This document shows, in pieces, positions 37,300 through 46,779 of a stretch of 64,000 nt of DNA. The translations under genes were made by a program, and so were the position numbers. Source of the stretch: Akkermansiaceae bacterium (GTDB lineage Bacteria; Verrucomicrobiota; Verrucomicrobiia; Verrucomicrobiales; Akkermansiaceae); the NCBI GenBank assembly GCA_903919975.1, contig CAIXKE010000064.1, forward strand, positions 1-64,000, in the 5' to 3' direction. The notes under the pieces are model-generated. The model searched no databases, was not told the origin of the DNA, and saw only the letters and a program-made list of their open reading frames with translations. Position 1 is the stretch's first letter. Each line of letters begins with the position of its first letter.

Positions 37300-37385
37300 T
37301 TACTGTGACTTCTTCGGTCGTGGCTTCTTCTCTTTCTTGTCCAGCGCCAGCGGGGCGGCGAGTTGTTCGTAGCGGCCGAAGGCTT
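37300..37385 (-). pseudogene. Detached natural 3' end of the MmeI-like gene
   Basis: The minus strand reads FGRYEQLAAPLALDKKEKKP, then RPKKSQ and TAA. This is the expected C-terminus of the MmeI-like protein whose body lies at 43.9-46.5 kb, where the corresponding frame instead drifts into unrelated codons after KKPRP. The upstream side is not coding for the same protein. The tail has therefore been separated from its gene by about 6.6 kb. Confidence 0.7.
37313..37380. repeat. Left copy of a 68-bp direct repeat (attL candidate)
   Basis: Matches 43903-43970 in the same orientation over 68 bp with two mismatches by eye. It starts TTCGGTCGTGGCTTC and ends GGCCGAA. Similarity stops sharply at both ends. 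An integrase remnant begins about 25 bp inside this copy. Confidence 0.85.
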
Positions 37386-37545: not shown

Positions 37546-37559
37546 GACTCCAGAAAGTA

Positions 37560-37601
37560 GGGTTTCACCCCATTGCGGAGCGGCGTCCTCTCGCCTATTT
37601 T
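37560..37601 (+). promoter_or_regulatory. Shared ACCCCAT promoter motif, copy 1
   Basis: GGGTTTCACCCCATTGCGG (37560-37578) ends its CAT core 22 nt before a -10-like TATTTT (37596-37601). The presumed target is the entericidin-like gene starting at 37644. Confidence 0.55.
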
Positions 37602-37643
37602 AGGTTCGTGAGAACTACATGGAAAAACACCATGTAACGATCA

Positions 37644-37775
37644 TTGAAACACATTGCCATGCTCGCGCTCGCATGCGCTCTTGTAGGGGTCTTCACCTCG
37701 GGTTGCGGCACCGTCCGCGGCTTCGGTAGGGACGTCGGCACCGTCGGCGAAGGCATTCAGAAATCCACCCGGTAA
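37644..37775 (+). CDS. Entericidin-like small lipoprotein
   Basis: 43 codons from a TTG at 37644; an ATG at 37659 is the alternative start. Signal peptide and lipobox (VGVFTSGC), then the mature part CGTVRGFGRDVGTVGEG, which matches entericidin A/B-type lipoproteins (C-x-TVRGxGxDV). Such peptides sit in the envelope and are induced by stress or stationary phase. It lies behind promoter motif copy 1 and is followed 49 bp later by a DUF5670 membrane peptide, with which it may form an operon. Confidence 0.72.
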   Translation: MKHIAMLALACALVGVFTSGCGTVRGFGRDVGTVGEGIQKSTR

Positions 37776-37824
37776 GCCGTTCGGTTTTTAAAATCCAATC
37801 ACCAACAAAGAAAGATCCCGATCC

Positions 37825-37974
37825 ATGTTAATGACTCTCGCAATTATCCTTCTCGTGCTGTGGGCCTTGGGGCTCGTCACCAGTTACACCTTGGGAGGGT
37901 TCATTCATATCCTGTTGGTGATAGCTGTCATCGTTGTTTTAATCCGGGTGATCCAGGGGCGTCGAATCCTCTGA
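37825..37974 (+). CDS. DUF5670 (lmo0937-type) small membrane protein
   Basis: 49 residues: MLMTLAIILLVLWALGLVTS, then YTLGGFIHILLVIAVIVVLIRV and a short basic end. Two hydrophobic helices around a TxGGFIH turn are the hallmark of the lmo0937/DUF5670 family, a tiny inner-membrane protein found next to stress genes in many soil bacteria. An AAAGAAAG ribosome-binding region precedes it. Function unknown. Confidence 0.8.
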   Translation: MLMTLAIILLVLWALGLVTSYTLGGFIHILLVIAVIVVLIRVIQGRRIL

Positions 37975-38041
37975 TTCATGGCACGATCAAGCACAAGTGC
38001 CGCTGCAAAAAGGCCTGTTTCATTTTCACCATCAAATCTCC

Positions 38042-38257
38042 ATGAATCTTAAAGCCATTGTCGCCATCGTCTTGGTCATTCTCGGCATCGTGGTGCTCGC
38101 CTATTCGGGCATCACTTTCACGACTCCGGGAGAAACCGTCCAGTTCCTCGGAATGCGCATTGAAACCCGTGAGTCACACTTCATCCCGCCGGTCTTCGGA
38201 GCGCTCGCCCTTATCGGCGGGATCGTGTTACTGCTCTTGAAACCCAGATCGGTTTGA
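38042..38257 (+). CDS. DUF3185-like small membrane protein
   Basis: 71 residues from the ATG at 38042 (the frame is open from 37997). Two hydrophobic helices (AIVAIVLVILGIVVLAYSG and VFGALALIGGIVLLLL) flank a soluble loop TTPGETVQFLGMRIETRES. This pattern matches DUF3185-type membrane proteins, which occur with DUF5670 and DUF3309 genes. It lies 67 bp after the DUF5670 gene, probably in the same transcript. Function unknown. Confidence 0.75.
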   Translation: MNLKAIVAIVLVILGIVVLAYSGITFTTPGETVQFLGMRIETRESHFIPPVFGALALIGGIVLLLLKPRSV

Positions 38258-38280
38258 TCAGAGCGGGGAAATAGGATCCT

Positions 38281-38302
38281 GAGATCCTATTGATAGGATC
38301 TC
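38281..38302. promoter_or_regulatory. 10-bp palindrome upstream of the response regulator
   Basis: GAGATCCTAT and ATAGGATCTC form a perfect inverted repeat with a 2-nt centre, just after the DUF3185 stop and 15 bp before the -35 box of the regulator gene. It could be a short terminator stem (no T run) or an operator. Confidence 0.4.
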
Positions 38303-38316
38303 GCGGTAGAATGCAT

Positions 38317-38346
38317 TTGCCTTCGGATGATTGTCCGTGGTATAAT
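38317..38346 (+). promoter_or_regulatory. Sigma-70-type promoter of the response regulator gene
   Basis: TTGCCT (38317-38322) and a perfect TATAAT (38341-38346) are 18 bp apart, about 40 bp upstream of the start codon. The ACCCCAT motif seen at other promoters of the segment is absent here, so this promoter may be constitutive. Confidence 0.55.
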
Positions 38347-38387
38347 ACAGCGGGTAGGAATGTCAAAACACGGCGCACCATGAACCT

Positions 38388-39065
38388 ATGAAACCAATCA
38401 CCGTCCTGTTGGCTGAAGATCATACTCTGGTGCGTGAGGGGATCCGCATGATTCTCAATCTTGAAACGGATCTGGATGTCGTCGGTGAGGCGCATGACGG
38501 GCGACAGGCCATCAAGCTGGCCCTTGAGTCCAATCCCGATGTGGTGTTGATGGACATCGCCATGCCCGGTCTCAACGGACTGGAAGCCACCCGCCAGTTG
38601 CTGAAGGTCCGTCCCGGCGCGAAAATCATCATTCTCACCGCACATTGCGATGACACTCACGTCAAACGCGCCGCCGAATCCGGGGCGATGGGATTCCTGC
38701 TCAAACAGGATTCCACCCACGATGTTTGCCGCGCGATTCGGGAAGTTCACCAAGGCAGGATTTTTTACTGCACTTCGGTTTCGGATCGTTTCACTCGCAT
38801 CAATTCTCATGCGCGCGACCTATTGGGAAATTCCGTGAGAAAACCCTCCGTGCTGACCTCGCGCGAGATGGAAATACTTCAACTCATTGCCGAGGGAAAA
38901 GCTAACAAGGAAGCCGCAGCGGAGCTCGGAATCAGCATCAAGACGGTGGAGAAACACCGCGGACAACTGATGAAAAAACTCGATATCCACGATACTGCGA
39001 GCCTCACTCGCCATGCCATCTCGGCGGGTATCATCGAGAGTAGCGTGCAGGTCACCATGCTGTGA
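38388..39065 (+). CDS. NarL/FixJ-family response regulator
   Basis: 225 residues. Receiver domain: acidic pocket LLAEDH near the N-terminus, phospho-acceptor Asp at about 56 in VVLMDIAMPG, the switch Thr in IILTAH and the Lys in FLLKQ. The C-terminal LuxR-type HTH is LTSREMEILQLIAEGKANKEAAAELGISIKTVEKHRGQLMKKL. No histidine kinase is adjacent; only a deleted kinase remnant remains 4.7 kb away (43737-43853) inside the same segment. Candidate targets are the four promoters carrying the ACCCCAT motif at about -41. Confidence 0.9.
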   Translation: MKPITVLLAEDHTLVREGIRMILNLETDLDVVGEAHDGRQAIKLALESNPDVVLMDIAMPGLNGLEATRQLLKVRPGAKIIILTAHCDDTHVKRAAESGAMGFLLKQDSTHDVCRAIREVHQGRIFYCTSVSDRFTRINSHARDLLGNSVRKPSVLTSREMEILQLIAEGKANKEAAAELGISIKTVEKHRGQLMKKLDIHDTASLTRHAISAGIIESSVQVTML

Positions 39066-39089
39066 GACGCTTGGCGGCTCCATGCCAGT

Positions 39090-39132
39090 GGGATTACACC
39101 CCATGGCGGTTCATCGTGGAATATGCTAATTT
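39090..39132 (+). promoter_or_regulatory. Shared ACCCCAT promoter motif, copy 2
   Basis: GGGATTACACCCCATGGCGG (39090-39109), with the CAT core 22 nt before TAATTT (39127-39132). It lies upstream of the small lipoprotein gene at 39178. Confidence 0.55.
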
Positions 39133-39177
39133 CTCCTTGGTTGGGGAACAGCCCAATCAATTAACACCTTAATCACC

Positions 39178-39348
39178 ATGAAAACCATCATTGTCAGTCT
39201 CCTTGGCCTCGGCGCTCTCAGCTTTCTAACCAACTGCACTCTCGTCGAGAGCCGGGAACCTTCCACACGCACCACCAGAACGACGACGACCGAGGTGACC
39301 CCGACCACCTATGGCACGGTGGAAACCAAAACCACGCGTTCTTACTGA
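39178..39348 (+). CDS. Small Thr-rich lipoprotein
   Basis: 56 residues: signal peptide with lipobox (LSFLTNC), then a Thr/Arg-rich mature segment (RTTRTTTTEVTPTTYGTVE). No family is recognised with certainty; the low-complexity mature part suggests an envelope tether. Its promoter carries motif copy 2. After the stop, 39349-39635 holds no gene I can support. Confidence 0.6.
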   Translation: MKTIIVSLLGLGALSFLTNCTLVESREPSTRTTRTTTTEVTPTTYGTVETKTTRSY

Positions 39349-39635
39349 TCTGGACGCACCCGTCCGGGGCACGGATGCTTGATTCCATCTATGGGAGTCC
39401 AATCCGGCTTTTTGGATGGGATCATGAGTCGGAGTGGTTCCAAACTGCCGAAACAATGACCCTCGGGGGGGGCAAAACATGCATCACCCCCGCTCTATTT
39501 AGGCCGCGCGGCGCTTGCGGTTCGCTTGCCTGCTGCTGTTTGATAGAAGGCCGACAGTGAATGGACGCGACCCTCAGGAAACCGGGAAGTCCCCGCTAAA
39601 GTTGATCCACCAGGGTTGCGGATGATTTGTTGCCT

Positions 39636-40413
39636 TCACGGTAAGGGGATCTTGTTGATCGGAAGCGACAGTCCGCCGGGTATGGGCGTGCTGCCGGAGA
39701 GCAATTCATCAGACGGAACCGGGACGTCCTTTTTTGCCTGCGGGATCAATCGCCCGATCGCCTCGGCCAGCGAGGTCACGATTTCATCAGCGCCGGAGTC
39801 ACGCAAGGCGGCGGCGTTCTCCGGACTCAGGTCCGGTCGTCCCCACAAGCCGACGACGATTTTCAAACTCGCGGAAAGCGCCCGGATTTTCACACATAGA
39901 TATCTCGCGTGAATGAGCGTGCTGGGCGGCACCACTGAGATGCAAACAACATCAGCTTTCGCTTTCCGGACCCACGCCACAAGCTCACCCAACGGCATCG
40001 TTGCCGCCGCGCTCTGTGCGGACAAGCCATGCTGACCAATCAGTCGGATGATCCGGTTCCGCAATTCCTCCCGCTGCATCAAGAAGGACGACAACCAGCG
40101 CGGCCGTTCCGAGCGGTCCAAGCACCGGTGCCAAAACCACCTGCATGAACTCAATGCGCTGATCATTTCCATTGACGATCTCTACCGGCGTCACTTTTCC
40201 CGCCGGTCGCCTTGTGGAATCCGGACGGGACTCGGGGCCATCCGGCAGATCCTTCTTCAGTTCTTCGAGGGTTGTCGAGATCGTTGAGAGGGGTCCATAC
40301 TGCGGCACTTGGATCGAGCGCAATTTGGTTGCTTGTGATTCTGCGGACGAGGGTCGCTTTGCGGGTATGGCCATGTGGATTTCCGGTCGCAACGGCAAGT
40401 GAAGGACGTTCAA
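39636..40413 (-). pseudogene. AI-2E/PerM-family transporter remnant (frameshift, deletion)
   Basis: The 5' part reads KVTPVEIVNGNDQRIEFMQV and LAPVLGPLGTAALVVVLL, then loses frame. The -1/+1 frame resumes as FLMQREELRNRIIRLIGQ, the next block of AI-2E transporters. A short stretch later the protein jumps to AKADVVCISVVPPSTLIHAR and IVVGLWGRPD, a cobalamin-binding-like cytosolic domain found at the C-terminus of some members. The N-terminal helices and most of the membrane core are missing. It is a decayed gene. Confidence 0.65.
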
Positions 40414-40477
40414 GACGGATTCAACCCGTCATGAACGTCCCTATCAGATGAAGTGTCACGCCTCCTATTTAAAGCGA

Positions 40478-40780
40478 CTATTTGTTTTCCGCATCCACCT
40501 TGGCCTTGGCTGCATCCGCCTCGGCTTCGGCTTTCTTCTTCTCGGCATCGAGTTGTGCTTGGGCGGAAACTTTGTCGGTCTCGATCCTTGCCTTGTCGAT
40601 CTTGGCGTTCACGTCGGTTTGTTGGTTCGCGTATTTGGCATCCGCGTCCACTTCGTCCTTGCGCGTGTCGATCGCCTCCTTGGTGGCGTCCGTGGATTCA
40701 TCAATGGCGGTTTTCTGTTTGTTGCAGCCATAGGTGAAGGCTGCGGCAATCGCGACGATTGCGAATTTTGAGTATTTCAT
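40478..40780 (-). CDS. Coiled-coil small lipoprotein
   Basis: 100 residues: lipoprotein signal (AIVAIAAAFTYGC), then an Ala/Lys/Glu/Asp-rich helix for the rest of the protein (for example QAQLDAEKKKAEAEADAAKA), which predicts a long coiled coil. Proteins of this kind stabilise or space the envelope. It starts 25 bp after the stop of the YXWGXW gene on the same strand and may be co-transcribed with it. Confidence 0.7.
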   Translation of the reverse strand: MKYSKFAIVAIAAAFTYGCNKQKTAIDESTDATKEAIDTRKDEVDADAKYANQQTDVNAKIDKARIETDKVSAQAQLDAEKKKAEAEADAAKAKVDAENK

Positions 40781-40805
40781 GGCGGTGTGTTTCTATGGTT
40801 ATGGT

Positions 40806-42632
40806 TTAATTACGTTCCTTCTTCTTGGTTTTCCCGGAGGATTGCTCGGCATCTTCCTTATCCGGATCGGATTTTTCGCTGCCGGAGGGCTTCTTCGGAG
40901 CGGTTTTTGAGGACTGGCGGGGTTGCGGTTGAGTTCTGTGTTCCGGTTCCCTGACTTTAGGTTGTTGCTCCGGTCGGGATTTTTTTTGCGGCATTTCAAC
41001 GCGCCGCTCTGGTTGCGCCTGTTGTTTTTTTGTTTGAGGCGTGGCCTCACGCTGGGGTTGCGGCTGTTGTTTATCTAAGCGGGGGGCAGGTTCCTTGCGT
41101 TCGGTCTTCGGTAGTTCTTTTTTTCTTGTCCCAGGTCCACGTTGTTCCGGTTGGCCTTTGGTTTCAGGCCGAGGTTTTTCCAGATCGGGCTTGCGGTCGG
41201 GCGTTTCCTTTTTGGGCTCGGTGATCACAGAGCGTTGTGGCTTCTTCGGCGGAGCATTCTTTTTAGAAAAACGATCAGGCGATCTTCCCACAATCGGTGA
41301 TGTGGGGAGTTTGACTCTCGTCGGCTTGATATCCCGTTCGACCTTTCCGGCGGCGGTATCCACGCCCTCTGTCTCAAGCGCTTTTCTCCGCTCGCTGTTT
41401 TTTCGCACTTCCCGGCCGACATCGGCAAGTTGGCGCCGTTCTTTCTCTGGCACCTGCTGGACGCTTATCGGACTGTCAGAATTTTTCGCCATTTGGTCCA
41501 GCGGGGAGGCAATCAGGAGCTGCTGCTCTTTGACCTCAGCCGTATCCAGTCTGAGCCTCTTCTGATCGGCCCAAGTGCGCGGCGGACGTGCTGACTCATG
41601 ATCGCGGCGATAATCATACGATGCTTTATAACGGCGTTCCCAATCGCGATCCTGCCGATGTGTCCAACGCCGGTAGGAATACACCGGGTCGTAACCGTAG
41701 CGGCTGGAATGATAGGCATACGGCGAATAGTATCCGTTGTCGCTGTATCTTCGGTCGTAATAGTCACCAAAGTAGTAGTGATGATAATTGGGCCGCAGGA
41801 ACAGATGCTCCATCAGCGCCACAAGCCCGATAGCGACCACCGGCGAGTAGGAATAGCCCGGGCGGGAATAGTAACCCGATTGGAAGTAAACCGGAGCATA
41901 GAGAACGCCCCGCCGATTGAAGCTGTAGTCCCAATAACCATCGACAAAGACATAGCCTCGCGGAGTCCACACATAGTGGGCAGGAATCCAATCCCAATCG
42001 GAACGTCCTTGCGCCCAGTAGCCGGGTCTCCATGCGTAACGTTCCTGCTGCCACATCCAGTTTCCCGGCGTCCATCCATAGTCACGCGACGGTGCCTCGA
42101 CATTCGGGCCGGCCTCCACAGTCACCGGAGGTTTTGGTAGATAGGTGGTTTCCTCAACGGTTGAATCGGCCCAATATCCGGAAATCCACTGGTTGCCTTG
42201 TTCGGCAGTGGTCCAATAACCGGTGGTCCATTGGCGGCCGGGCGGCAGGGCTCGCCAGGTGCCGCTGATCCAGAGATAATCACTCCGCTCGTCATCCCAG
42301 GCCCAATATCCGGGTATCCAAGTGATGTTGTCTCCCGATGGTCGTTCTTTCGGCGGCAGTTCCTCAATGGCTTGCGGAGGGGCTTTTTCCACAATGACAC
42401 CCGGCTCGGGATTGTAACTGACGATTCCAGCAAAAGCCTCATGGATCGGCCCACGGGTGAGCACTTGCGCGCCCTGGTCATCGTTTCCGGATTCTTCGGC
42501 CCGGCCGTTTGTGGCGACGGCTGCGATGCCAAGCAGGACGGCTTGTGCAACCGCCATTCCGTATCCGGACAGCCTGCGGACAAGGACGTGAGGGCCGGAG
42601 CTTGATGGCATTTCAATTGGTTCGTGTTTCAT
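40806..42632 (-). CDS. YXWGXW-repeat secreted protein
   Basis: 608 residues. After a signal peptide come several repeats of the YXWGXW type: WIPGYWAWDDERSDYLWISG, TTGYWTTAEQGNQWISGYW, GWTPGNWMWQQERYAWRPGYW, WTPRGYVFVDGYWDY (residues ~100-250). Then a Tyr-rich region and a very basic Lys/Pro/Arg/Gln tail from about 400 to the end. The repeat family is periplasmic or surface-exposed in many bacteria, with no biochemical role established. It is adjacent to a coiled-coil lipoprotein and a DUF3309 gene. Confidence 0.78.
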   Translation of the reverse strand: MKHEPIEMPSSSGPHVLVRRLSGYGMAVAQAVLLGIAAVATNGRAEESGNDDQGAQVLTRGPIHEAFAGIVSYNPEPGVIVEKAPPQAIEELPPKERPSGDNITWIPGYWAWDDERSDYLWISGTWRALPPGRQWTTGYWTTAEQGNQWISGYWADSTVEETTYLPKPPVTVEAGPNVEAPSRDYGWTPGNWMWQQERYAWRPGYWAQGRSDWDWIPAHYVWTPRGYVFVDGYWDYSFNRRGVLYAPVYFQSGYYSRPGYSYSPVVAIGLVALMEHLFLRPNYHHYYFGDYYDRRYSDNGYYSPYAYHSSRYGYDPVYSYRRWTHRQDRDWERRYKASYDYRRDHESARPPRTWADQKRLRLDTAEVKEQQLLIASPLDQMAKNSDSPISVQQVPEKERRQLADVGREVRKNSERRKALETEGVDTAAGKVERDIKPTRVKLPTSPIVGRSPDRFSKKNAPPKKPQRSVITEPKKETPDRKPDLEKPRPETKGQPEQRGPGTRKKELPKTERKEPAPRLDKQQPQPQREATPQTKKQQAQPERRVEMPQKKSRPEQQPKVREPEHRTQPQPRQSSKTAPKKPSGSEKSDPDKEDAEQSSGKTKKKERN

Positions 42633-42718
42633 GATTCGTATGGATTGTGTGTTATATCTTTGGCTGCCGTGCCAAGCATACGGCGGCGTGGCGGCGGTTT
42701 GATGACTGGCGCACTTGA

Positions 42719-42877
42719 TCAGATCTTACCAAGCAGCAGCAGGATGATCAGGATTAGGAGAATCAAGCCCAGCGCGCCGCTCGGGTAATATCCCCAGCTC
42801 CGGCTATGGGGCCATGAGGGGATTGCTCCGATCAAAAGCAGAATGAGCACAACGAGCAGAATGGTTCCTATGGTCAT
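42719..42877 (-). CDS. DUF3309 small membrane protein
   Basis: 52 residues: MTIGTILLVVLILLLIGAIP, SWPHSRSWGYYPSGALGLIL and a terminal hydrophobic helix ending LLLLGKI. The central SWPHSRxWGYxPSG motif is diagnostic of DUF3309. It is transcribed from a promoter with motif copy 4, divergent from the fasciclin gene. Function unknown. Confidence 0.85.
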   Translation of the reverse strand: MTIGTILLVVLILLLIGAIPSWPHSRSWGYYPSGALGLILLILIILLLLGKI

Positions 42878-42906
42878 GGCATTGTTTGGTTGTTGATGAC
42901 ATGCAC

Positions 42907-42943
42907 AGCGTAGCGCGTAACGAGGAAACTCTCTATGGGGTAT
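42907..42943 (-). promoter_or_regulatory. Shared ACCCCAT promoter motif, copy 4
   Basis: On the minus strand CTATACCCCATAG, with the CAT core 22 nt before TACGCT (42912-42907). It lies 58 bp upstream of the DUF3309 start. The weakest copy: the flanking GGG and GCG of the other copies are not conserved. Confidence 0.4.
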
Positions 42944-43002
42944 AGTTCTACTTTTGGCCGCGCGGATTCGAGTGCGTCACCGGCGCATCGTTTGAAAACG
43001 GT

Positions 43003-43045
43003 GGGGATACACCCCATAGCGTTCCTAGCGCTTTTCATCCATCTT
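43003..43045 (+). promoter_or_regulatory. Shared ACCCCAT promoter motif, copy 3
   Basis: GGGGATACACCCCATAGCG (43003-43021), with the CAT core 22 nt before CATCTT (43040-43045), 82 bp upstream of the fasciclin start. The -10-like hexamer is weak. Confidence 0.5.
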
Positions 43046-43098: not shown

Positions 43099-43662
43099 AT
43101 GAAAACAAAACGCCTGACTCACACCGTGCTGTTCATTTCGATGGCGGCGCTCATTCCAACCACGTATGCCCAAGATGATAAAATAGGCAAGACTGTGATG
43201 GAAGAGAAGAATGCCGCCGTGAAGGCCGGTTCACTGACCGCAGTCATTGCTGACAGCGCCTCATTCTCCACGCTCTCGAAGGCCCTCAAGGCCACGGGGC
43301 TCGATGCAACCCTTGGACAAAAGGATGAATTCACGGTCTTCGCGCCCACGGATGAGGCGTTCGCAAAACTGCCGACCGATACGCTCACCAAGCTCATGCT
43401 TCCGGAGAACAAGGAGAAACTCCGCATGCTTCTGCTCTATCATGTGGTTGCCGGCAGGATGATCGCCGCGGAGCTGATCAGCGGCGACGTGAAGACCGTC
43501 AACGGTGAGAAATTGAAGATTGGTGTCTCAGCCGATAAAATCGAAGTCAACGGAGAAAAGGTGTTCAGCGCCGATGTGATTGCCACCAATGGCGTCGTGC
43601 ATTCCATTGGCAAGGTGTTGGTTCCAAAATCTCTTGATGAATTTGTTGGTCTCAAGCAGTGA
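43099..43662 (+). CDS. Fasciclin (FAS1) domain secreted protein
   Basis: 187 residues: signal peptide ending TYAQ, then one FAS1 domain (about 45-185). Hallmarks are FTVFAPTDEAFAKLP, LLYHVVAGRM and ATNGVVHSIGKVLVP. FAS1 domains mediate adhesion or protein contacts at the cell surface or in the periplasm. It is controlled by the promoter with motif copy 3 and is followed by a strong terminator. Confidence 0.9.
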   Translation: MKTKRLTHTVLFISMAALIPTTYAQDDKIGKTVMEEKNAAVKAGSLTAVIADSASFSTLSKALKATGLDATLGQKDEFTVFAPTDEAFAKLPTDTLTKLMLPENKEKLRMLLLYHVVAGRMIAAELISGDVKTVNGEKLKIGVSADKIEVNGEKVFSADVIATNGVVHSIGKVLVPKSLDEFVGLKQ

Positions 43663-43877: not shown

Positions 43878-46491
43878 TCAACAAGATAGACTTTTAGTAA
43901 TATTCGGTCGTGGCTTCTTCTCTTTCTTGTCCAGCGCCAGCGGGGCGGTGAGTTGTTCGTAGAGGCCGAAAAGGAATTCGACGCGCAGGCGGTCGGTGGC
44001 GAAGGGTTCCTTGCGGTAGCAGCGGTCCACCGCGCGGTCGAGCGCCTCATGAGCCTTGGCGAGCCGCGGCGGCATCGACACCGGATCGTAAAGGTCCGCC
44101 AAGGTGCTGCCAGGGAATTGCTCGCGCTCCGCAAGGACCTCGCTCGCGCATTCTTCGACTTTCGCGCGCTGGGCGTCCGTCGCGTCCATCGGCCAGGGGA
44201 AGTTGTTGTAAACCATGCTACCCGAATACTGGAAATCCGATTTCAAACGTCCACTCACCGTCTTCACCCAGGCCATGTGCATGGTTGAAGAAAGAACGCC
44301 GAAAAGAAATACGCTGTTCGTCGGGATAAGGTAGAGCTTTTTACTGGCTATAATTTCCGGCGAGAGGAATCCAATGGGGATAAAACTGCGCCTTTCAGAA
44401 GACGCTTCCGGGATGGCGATGAAATTGGAGGCTGGCTCGGTAATACAAAGCTCCTTCATCTAAGCGTCGGATAAAATTAGATTGCCCCCGTCGGAAGGCT
44501 TGTTCCCACAACGCATCTCAGGGATATTTCCAAACGGTTTGGTTCGCTTGGTCACAAAGGCGTCCGATCCGGGAGTCAGATAGGGACTGATATTGATGGC
44601 TTCGCTTACAACTGGATGTTCGGAGTCGTTTTCGTAGTCGTAAATTGCTTTCGGTGTGTGGTCGTTTACGCCGAATCCGACAATAACAACATGGACATGA
44701 GCCTTTCCTCGCGCCTCGCTTTCCCAGGCGAAAGTGCGGTGGGCGAAGTGAATCTTCACTCCATAGCGTCCGAACAGCAGGCCTCAGATGATAGGTAATT
44801 GCTCTCCCTGCACGATGTTTTTTGTGGAGACCAACGCGCAGCGAATCGTGGTGCCGCGAATGTAATCAGCGGCTTTGACAAACCACGAGACAACGAAATC
44901 CACGTCTCCGTTGTTGTCGAACTCCCCGAAAACAACGCCCATGTCAGCTTTCTGCTCGGCATTTTGGTAGTGCTTTCCGACAAACGGAGGATTCCCCAAA
45001 ACGTAACTGCATTGTTCCGGCGGCAGCACGGTTTTCCAATCCGTCCGCAACGCGTTCGCACAAACGATGTGCGGCGATTTCTTTAGAGGAATCCGCCGGT
45101 AGAGCTGGCCGAAGGTTTCCGATAGCGCGATGTTCGCCTGATGGTCGGCGAGCCAGAGGGCGACCTCGGTGATCTTGGCGGGGAACTCTTCGATTTCGAT
45201 GCCGTGCATTTGATCGACATCGACTTTGGAGAGTTTGGTGACATCGAAGGAGAATTCGTGTTGGGTTTCGCTGAGTTCGTTGCGGTGGAGTTCGAGCAGG
45301 ATTTCGAGTTCGAGGGCGCGGAGTTCGCGGTAGGTGATGACGAGGAAGTTGCCGCAGCCGCAGGCGGGATCGAGAAAACGGAGTATGGCGATGCGTTCGT
45401 GCAAGGCTTCAAGGCGGGCGGTGGGTGGATTTGTCGGCCTTGGCGGCATCAAATTCGGCGCGGAGTTCGTCGAGGAAGAGCGGGCGGATGAGTTTGAGAA
45501 TGTTCTTTTCCGCCGTGTAGTGCGCGCCGATCTGGCGGCGCTCGGTGGGGTCCATCACGCCTTGGAACAAGGAGCCGAAGACGGCGGGCGAGATACGCGC
45601 CCACTCGAAGGAAGCGGCTTTGAGAAGATGGCCGCGCATCTGCGCGTTGAAGTCGGCGAAGGAGATGCGCTCGGAGAAAAGGTCGCCGTTGATGTAAGGG
45701 AAAGGGGCGAGGTCTTCATCGAGATTGGCCTGTCGCTGATCCTCCGGGGTGTTGAGCACGTCGAAGAGACGCGCGAGCATCGGGCCGGTGTCCCCGCCAT
45801 CGGCTTTGGTGCGATTTTCGATGAAAAGCTGGAAGTCCTTTTGGTTGAAGATGCCGGTGTCGTCGGCGAAGAGGCAGAACAGCAGACGGACGAACAGGAC
45901 GCGGAGATCATGACCGGAAAATCCACCGGCGAGCAGCGCGTCATGGAGTTTCGCCATAATTTCGGCGGCCTCGATGTTTGCGGGATCCTCGGGGTCGAGT
46001 TTGTGCTGTTTGTAGCCGGGGATGAAGGCGAAGCGGCGGACGTGTTTGTGCAGGTCCTCCAGCGGAAAGACGATGGACGGCGGCTGTTGTTTGAAGAGCG
46101 GCAGGTCGGGGTCCTGCTCGGGTTCGAGGTCGTGGAGGGCGATGCGTTTGAAATCAGAGACGATGAGCCAGCGCGGCAATTCCTTTTCACGGTCGGAATC
46201 GACGAGGCCGCGGATGTATTCCATGCCCTGCGCGTGGGCCTTGTCGAGGTCCTGCCCGGCGGACTTGTGCTCTACGAGGACTTTGCCCGGCCAGAAGAGG
46301 TCGATCTTGCCTCAAGTGCCGGAGAGTTTTTTCACCGGTTCCTCAAACGACGCGACTGTGTGGCGCTTGATGCCAAAGACGTGGAAGAAATCGTTCCAGA
46401 ACGACTGGCTTTCAGATTTCTCTGAGGTGGTGTCCCGCCACTCACGGGAGAGGCCGATGGCACGGTGGCGGATTTCGTTCCAAGAGAGCAT
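43878..46491 (-). pseudogene. MmeI-like type IIL restriction-methylase, multiply broken
   Basis: Reading from ATG 46491 (MLSWNEIRHRAIGLSREWRD) the protein shows the N-terminal nuclease region, with FEEPVKKLSGT then TGA (46312-46314), then GKIDLFWPGKVLVEHKSAG in the same frame. The helicase-spacer region follows. A frameshift near 45430 joins KADKSTH to ARLEALHERI. The methylase core has DPACGCGNFLV and GNPPFVG. An in-frame TGA at 44784 (between LPII and GLLFGRYGVK, probably a former Trp) and a TAG at 44460-44462 follow, the latter with about 80 residues missing, then the TRD/C-terminal part. The very end drifts after KKPRP into the island. Intact relatives cut and methylate DNA in one polypeptide of about 900-1000 residues; this copy cannot. 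Confidence 0.85.
43903..43970. repeat. Right copy of the 68-bp direct repeat (attR candidate)
   Basis: Direct-orientation match to 37313-37380 with two mismatches. Here it is fused on its right side to the body of the MmeI-like pseudogene; on its left side the coding frame is foreign. Confidence 0.85.
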
Positions 46492-46779
46492 GTGATTGGG
46501 CAGGATTGGGCTGACAGATTGCATATCTGAAATTCAAAAAGACAGGCCTTTTTGAAGAATTTGCTCCGGTTCGAGGTCGTGGAGGACCGGGTGGACCTCG
46601 GATCCCACCCGAAAAGAATCCACTTGATGCCTGCGAGGGTCTCGACAACATCCCGTTCTTCCACTAAACAAGGGGCTGGCAGGGATAATTCTTACCTGTC
46701 GGAACCCCGGCCCCACTCACTGCGGCTGATCACTAAGCTGACATAACCCGGAAGTCCTTCCATACCGATTGCGATCACG

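Follow-up and report, generated by a model that had tools for sequence, protein, structure and literature searches.

Does the response regulator encoded at 38388-39065 of an Akkermansiaceae contig control the four promoters that surround it? The stretch analysed, called the window below, covers positions 1 to 64,000 of contig CAIXKE010000064.1 (assembly GCA_903919975.1; 64,000 nt). Within 5.5 kb of it, four promoters share the motif ACCCCAT ahead of an entericidin-like, a lipoprotein, a fasciclin and a DUF3309 gene, and a first-pass annotation made from the letters alone had proposed them as a candidate regulon of this NarL-type regulator. From comparison with the genomes of relatives, we consider it highly probable that the regulator is a NarL-family activator, that ACCCCAT belongs to a palindrome which is its operator, and that the genes behind this palindrome form a general-stress or envelope regulon.

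ACCCCAT forms half of an inverted repeat

All four ACCCCAT sites were measured and lie where they had been annotated, each exactly 22 nt before TATTTT, TAATTT, CATCTT or TACGCT. The heptamer is a single arm of an 18-bp inverted repeat, both arms of which are present at three of the window sites, listed here with E values of profile R1 (described below) and position weight matrix (PWM) scores.

37557..37577, plus strand: putative operator 1, inverted repeat GTAGGGTTTCACCCCATTGCG, with the -10-like box TATTTT at 37596-37601 (E 3e-5 in the window; PWM 18.6; spacing verified)
39088..39108, plus strand: putative operator 2, GTGGGATTACACCCCATGGCG, with the -10-like box TAATTT at 39127-39132 (E 4.1e-4; PWM 20.5; spacing verified)
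43001..43021, plus strand: putative operator 3, GTGGGGATACACCCCATAGCG, with the -10-like box CATCTT at 43040-43045 (E 2.9e-5; PWM 19.4; spacing verified)
42933..42943, minus strand: putative half operator TACCCCATAG, without the distal arm, with the -10-like box TACGCT at 42912-42907 (rank 4, 9.1 bits, E 0.099; spacing verified)

The motif centre had been placed near -41; provided that the hexamer is the -10 box, from which start sites were inferred, the dyad is instead centred near -43.5. CATCTT before the fasciclin gene is a poor -10 box. As the heptamer by itself shows no enrichment in the window (10 copies versus 7.2 expected), the case rests on comparison.

The dyad recurs around orthologues of the regulator

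Orthologue loci were the best 80 of 554 relatives of the regulator (55-69% identical, 764 kb), labelled mostly Verrucomicrobiota, plus a few Planctomycetota, Lentisphaerae and Omnitrophica. There were 107 copies of ACACCCCAT in these 80 loci versus none for the reversed control, and the second arm emerged from 183 copies of CACCCCAT, spread over 64 loci, giving the dyad ATGGGGTG-WW-CACCCCAT with the consensus core GGGGTG-WW-CACCCC. A conserved RGC follows the dyad, and A and T are conserved at the TAnnnT places, 30-31 nt past the first C. A dyad matrix found 111 sites with a score of at least 16 in 54 of the 80 loci, compared with none in reversed and none in Markov sequences; because it was trained in the same loci where the sites were counted, which tells against the count, the evidence is the comparison with the controls and not the number of sites. 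The same controls answer the doubt raised in the first-pass annotation about the density of the motif in unrelated DNA, through which it is not spread. Further, 162 of 220 sites fell outside called genes, though called genes (by crude calls) made up 89% of the DNA.

The distance from the dyad to TAnnnT, taken over 221 orientations, peaked at 31 nt (26) and 32 nt (19), with 8 at 30 nt, 6 at 34 nt and 0 to 4 elsewhere. When 20 whole-genome stretches were added to the orthologue loci, giving 100 loci (the 20 were picked for their sites, which takes weight from counts in this set), the 235 copies of CACCCCAT fell into four classes by their distal arm: symmetric TGGGG (94), TNGGG shifted by one base (68), other GG (38) and none (35). 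The 22-nt spacing was the mode in all three classes with a distal GG and was sharpest in the TNGGG class (34 of 68). By our own reading, the window palindromes at 37557 and 43001 belong to the shifted TNGGG class and that at 39088 to the third. No site scoring at least 10 was found in the available stretch of 14 of the 80 loci, 7 of which were under 6 kb; L080, among the longer loci without a near site, has sites 10-20 kb away.

A profile trained without the own genome finds the window sites

Two search patterns were given up on the way: TACCCCATAG with one mismatch was dropped (112 matches in the reversed control versus 36 own), and TRGGGNNWWCACCCCATRG with three mismatches was too loose (52 versus 30 in the control) and was replaced by a sequence profile. 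Searched with narrower exact patterns, the own genome yielded 3 and 1 matches.

Profile R1 was built from 76 promoters in 46 loci of other genomes, with the own genome excluded. In the window it ranked the four sites first to fourth, with matches at 42999, 37556, 39086 and 42943 minus, in that order, at the E values listed above. Across the 3.8 Mb genome, the three palindromes were the top three of four matches (E 0.0018, 0.0018 and 0.021), the fourth being on another contig (E 0.066), and the naive chance of three given matches falling within 5.5 kb of the regulator is near 2e-8. The minus-strand site at 42943 has one good arm only, its distal GGG arm being absent, and is missing from the whole-genome matches at E 0.5 or better.

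The unenriched heptamer would suit the idea that the four window sites resemble each other by coincidence or through recent local duplication, an idea to which we attach almost no probability: the profile, trained elsewhere, already refutes it by finding the sites, and homologous promoters in other genomes have the site as well. Among 30 chosen genomes, 27 had a profile match at E 0.5; the regulator-negative genomes G021, G113 and G121 had one match each, at noise level.

The site occurs with this regulator and not with its paralogues

We then considered 387 genomes of the phylum, scoring the regulator as present at E below 1e-50; some of these genomes also supplied orthologue loci, so that the samples overlap in part. 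The regulator was present in 54 of them and at least one exact RGGNNWWCACCCCATR in 117. At least two copies of the motif were found in 32 of the 54 regulator-positive genomes versus 11 of the 333 regulator-negative ones (Fisher p 3e-23). One of these 11, G257, carries three sites around a partial orthologue (58%); among the other ten, five have paralogues of about 29-41% and five have none at E 1e-25.

The 30 neighbourhoods that were drawn around paralogous or more distantly related regulators (107 kb) contained no site, where 20.6 were expected from the density in orthologue loci; 11 of these neighbourhoods are from the own genome and 19 from others without a complete orthologue, which tells against the strength of this contrast. 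The regulator is, as had been annotated, the only NarL-type regulator in the segment, and it is also the only one on the contig of the window, out of 14 found in the genome. The co-occurrence and specificity, together with the conservation of the motif and the held-out ranking, support the proposed regulon, in which the regulator would bind the sites.

Genes behind the sites

The sites in the window lie among the following genes.

37644..37775, plus strand: entericidin-like small lipoprotein, the first gene behind operator 1 (Pfam Entericidin E 1.1e-4, 22.5 bits, slightly under the curated cut-off of 23.3)
37825..37974, plus strand: DUF5670 membrane peptide (Pfam PF18919 E 4.7e-15)
38042..38257, plus strand: 71-aa protein without a Pfam family, homologues of which (35-73% identity) lie near many orthologous regulators
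38388..39065, plus strand: NarL/FixJ (LuxR-type) response regulator, the proposed reader of the operator (Response_reg E 1.6e-27, GerE E 8.3e-19)
39178..39348, plus strand: small lipoprotein behind operator 2, without a Pfam family
40478..40780, minus strand: 100-aa protein without a site of its own in the window, the homologues of which have upstream sites
40806..42632, minus strand: WXXGXW/YXWGXW protein, downstream of the DUF3309 gene (Pfam WXXGXW E 7.5e-8)
42719..42877, minus strand: DUF3309 membrane peptide (Pfam E 3.4e-23)
43099..43662, plus strand: fasciclin-domain protein behind operator 3 (Pfam Fasciclin E 5.5e-36)

The entericidin, DUF5670, 38042 and regulator genes run in the same direction, and the regulator is probably within the operon behind operator 1; likewise, the WXXGXW/YXWGXW gene is probably co-transcribed with the DUF3309 gene. 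The L005 homologue of the entericidin-like protein is above the Pfam cut-off. An inverted repeat at 38270-38305, between the 38042 gene and the regulator, showed no significant folding (z -1.18).

Conservation upstream of orthologues, which the first-pass annotation had named as a check, was observed in the 100 loci to varying degrees. The entericidin-like protein has nine homologues, with a site within 150 nt upstream in five and within 500 nt in eight. All three homologues of the 40478 protein have a site 80-117 nt upstream (two of these loci are near-identical), and 6 of the 13 DUF3309 homologues have one within 500 nt. For the lipoprotein behind operator 2, one of two homologues has a site (L008, 95 nt upstream; L052 has none), and for the window WXXGXW protein the L062 homologue has one 190 nt upstream and four others have none. 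Tested family by family, the association with an upstream site was weak for DUF5670 (6 of 26 matches) and YXWGXW (1 of 9), and the fasciclin protein had no homologue among the 100 loci. Pooled over the target families, 56 of 126 genes had an upstream site versus 152 of 928 called genes, the families having been picked among genes already seen behind sites, which again weakens the comparison; the held-out ranking and the phylum-wide comparison are less exposed to such selection. The share was highest for a 65-aa protein without a Pfam family (8 of 9) and for BON (14 of 23), and lowest for YXWGXW.

Genes behind sites in relatives were chosen by a crude longest open reading frame rule, with some wrong frames, and oriented by the better -10 box. 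This gave 172 genes of at least 40 aa, and two sets of these, one of 51 and one of 100 (the latter in part re-selected manually), were scanned. They encode BON, DUF883, DUF5670, DUF3309, DUF2934, entericidin, ice-binding-like, ferritin-like and OsmC proteins, and further MlaA, phosphoketolase, acetate kinase, DnaJ, and receiver and PAS kinase proteins. Among the first 25 families of each scanned set, BON accounted for 4 of the 51 and 5 of the 100 genes and DUF883 for 5 of the 100; Pfam confirmed OsmC, two ferritin-like proteins, DnaJ and entericidin. General-stress outputs typically include OsmC, ferritin/Dps-like, BON, DUF883 and entericidin-type proteins, a list that the genes behind sites match and that suggests their function. 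Given the BON, ferritin-like, ice-binding-like, DUF883, DUF2934, DUF3309, OsmC and entericidin genes that follow the operator, a general- or envelope-stress regulon is the best reading of the output.

The regulator and its kinase operon

The 38388 protein has a receiver domain followed by a GerE helix-turn-helix, which places it in the NarL/FixJ family, and its recognition helix, KTVEKHR, is nearly invariant across 81 regulator sequences. A full kinase stands directly before the regulator in 39 of 80 loci. The full kinases that were scanned have HisKA_3 and HATPase; RsbU_N scored 22.9 bits in L013 and 19.0 bits in L044, under the cut-off of 25.5, and was not detected in L066, L073 and L063. 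Of the 55 loci with more than 3.5 kb upstream, 14 have a site beside the head of the kinase operon, 1.93-2.06 kb ahead of where the regulator gene starts; in 9 of these the better -10 box points towards the operon. In the orthologue loci, the first 500 nt of the regulator gene contain no site.

These 14 sites would fit equally well with a regulator that is merely controlled. Such a regulator figures in an alternative that we regard as unlikely: the palindrome would be a sigma-factor element or would serve some other dimeric regulator as operator, and the response regulator would only be under its control or adjacent to it. Some genomes with sites but no complete orthologue, or with an orthologue but no sites, also agree with this alternative. 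However, the co-occurrence given above argues against it, as do the three sites beside the partial orthologue in G257; moreover, an 18-bp dyad near -43.5 together with an ordinary -10 box is typical of an activator and not of a sigma-factor box.

A truncated kinase paralogue was observed in 18 loci (including L013:4134-4832, L044:3545-4243 and L066:4102-4836). It has the HisKA_3 dimerisation part and no space for an ATPase domain, and stands directly before the full kinase in 14 of the 18 cases. RsbU_N was above the cut-off in three of the four scanned. At the phosphoacceptor position, 11 of the 18 have Gln, 2 have Asn and 5 have His, whereas each of the 59 full kinases that match the same pattern has His there.

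Proposed mechanism and the evidence weighed

As motif, spacing, conservation, co-occurrence and gene content are observed, we infer from them binding, activation, autoregulation and a stress signal. The phosphorylated regulator (38388-39065) would bind ATGGGGTG-WW-CACCCCAT as a dimer at 37557, 39088 and 43001, and at the half site at 42943. With the dyad near -43.5, some 31.5 nt ahead of the -10 box, the promoter-proximal arm would overlap the -35 region, so that the regulator could recruit polymerase as a class II activator and switch on small envelope and stress genes. It would probably also activate its own operon through the 37557 promoter, a positive autoregulation. In relatives, the same operator is predicted to act on the stress-type genes behind it, and in some of them also on the operon that encodes the histidine kinase, its truncated paralogue and the regulator.

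A site overlapping -35 could also block polymerase, and the regulator might then bind the palindrome as a repressor. We think this improbable, even more so than a different reader of the palindrome, as the -10 offset is constant within 1-2 nt, as at activator-dependent promoters, and repressor sites are usually more variable in position.

Several results weigh against the regulator as an activator reading this operator. The exact pattern is lacking in 17 of the 54 regulator-positive genomes, and the 11 regulator-negative genomes with at least two copies stand on the other side of the same table. G018 has the regulator (E 2.6e-69), yet no profile match at E 0.5, and G243 and G254, of the same genus, have no orthologue but weak profile matches (best E 0.010 and 0.052). 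A site directly upstream is present in only 5 of 108 regulator-like matches, the better -10 box at the kinase-operon site faces away in 5 of 14 cases, and the site shares of the DUF5670 and YXWGXW matches are low. The neighbouring kinase is missing from the own genome (98% complete), where the best match, on another contig, is 26% identical over residues 125-371 only; phosphorylation here would therefore come from elsewhere or be dispensable.

Organisation as an island

Two further features flank the regulator and the four sites.

37313..37380: 68-nt direct repeat, left copy flanking the island
43903..43970: 68-nt direct repeat, right copy (97%), located within the 3' end of a disrupted MmeI-family gene

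The copies are 97% identical and 6590 nt apart. The MmeI-family restriction-methylation gene (43881-46524, minus strand) is broken into several frames. The repeats enclose regulator and sites and the right copy lies in a broken gene, which suggests that the island may have arrived by insertion in one piece. In G003 (C7), 11 listed of the 12 profile matches share a contig with the regulator and lie at most about 58 kb from it, and in G162 (C8), 8 listed of 9 are within about 35 kb; in G101 and G177 the matches are scattered across many contigs. The packed sites in G003 and G162 (L136-L139, L142-L144) form a stress-gene island, with a phosphoketolase gene behind one of those in G003.

Implications

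A broader picture, which we offer tentatively and hold to be somewhat less probable than its opposite, is a Verrucomicrobiota-wide, possibly PVC-wide, two-component general stress response without an alternative sigma factor: a soluble kinase whose front resembles RsbU_N; a truncated paralogue, lacking the ATPase domain and in most cases the phosphoacceptor histidine, that would serve as its partner or its brake; and a NarL-type activator that reads ATGGGGTG-WW-CACCCCAT, carried in some lineages, together with its targets, by a mobile island of 6 to 60 kb. It is a candidate answer to how Verrucomicrobiota run a stress response. A sharp operator tied to one regulator would allow targets to be predicted in sequenced members, and gives testable roles to DUF3309, DUF5670, DUF2934 and DUF883. 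By titles and abstract openings, no such operator or regulon is described for Verrucomicrobiota in the top-listed papers of searches in open-licence PMC text, and the papers listed for the motif letters were unrelated.

Comparison with known systems

The closest Protein Data Bank (PDB) sequences to the regulator are VraR, DesR, NarL and DevR, with better matches to the first three than to DevR. The system resembles the VraR/LiaR envelope-stress regulators in its best PDB sequence matches (5hev, 7ve6 and 4gvp) and in its envelope-related targets. The operator core of DevR/DosR is GGGACT-WW-AGTCCC, and the site of a DevR/DosR-type activator overlaps or adjoins -35. The dyad here is similarly near or overlapping -35, 31.5 nt upstream of the -10 box (by predicted start sites), whereas its core, GGGGTG-WW-CACCCC, is not that of DevR/DosR, and the gene content differs. 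As far as the available part of the source goes, DevR/DosR of Mycobacterium and OsdR of Streptomyces share with the present system a NarL-family regulator, a GGG...CCC inverted-repeat operator and a dormancy or stress regulon, the OsdR palindrome being AGGGCCGATCGGCCCT with USP-domain genes in the vicinity (PMC5069765).

RsbU_N kinases beside rsbT are reported in Proteobacteria, in the portion of the paper at hand (PMC12143880). The truncated paralogue beside the orthologues is like these, with RsbU_N above the cut-off in most of those scanned; unlike in these, the domain is under the cut-off or undetected in the full kinases of relatives, and the window's genome is without the kinase. The nearest analogue found for the truncated paralogue is FasC of the FasBC pair, a pseudokinase as proposed by its authors in the part of their article available (PMC12675982). 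In the EcfG general stress response of Alphaproteobacteria, csbD, ecnAB and osmC are under EcfG, according to the accessible text (PMC7083833). That system uses an extracytoplasmic function (ECF) sigma factor, whereas here a response-regulator operator stands with an ordinary -10 box, and csbD is not among the families listed; the outputs overlap nevertheless, as far as that text describes them, which supports the stress reading.

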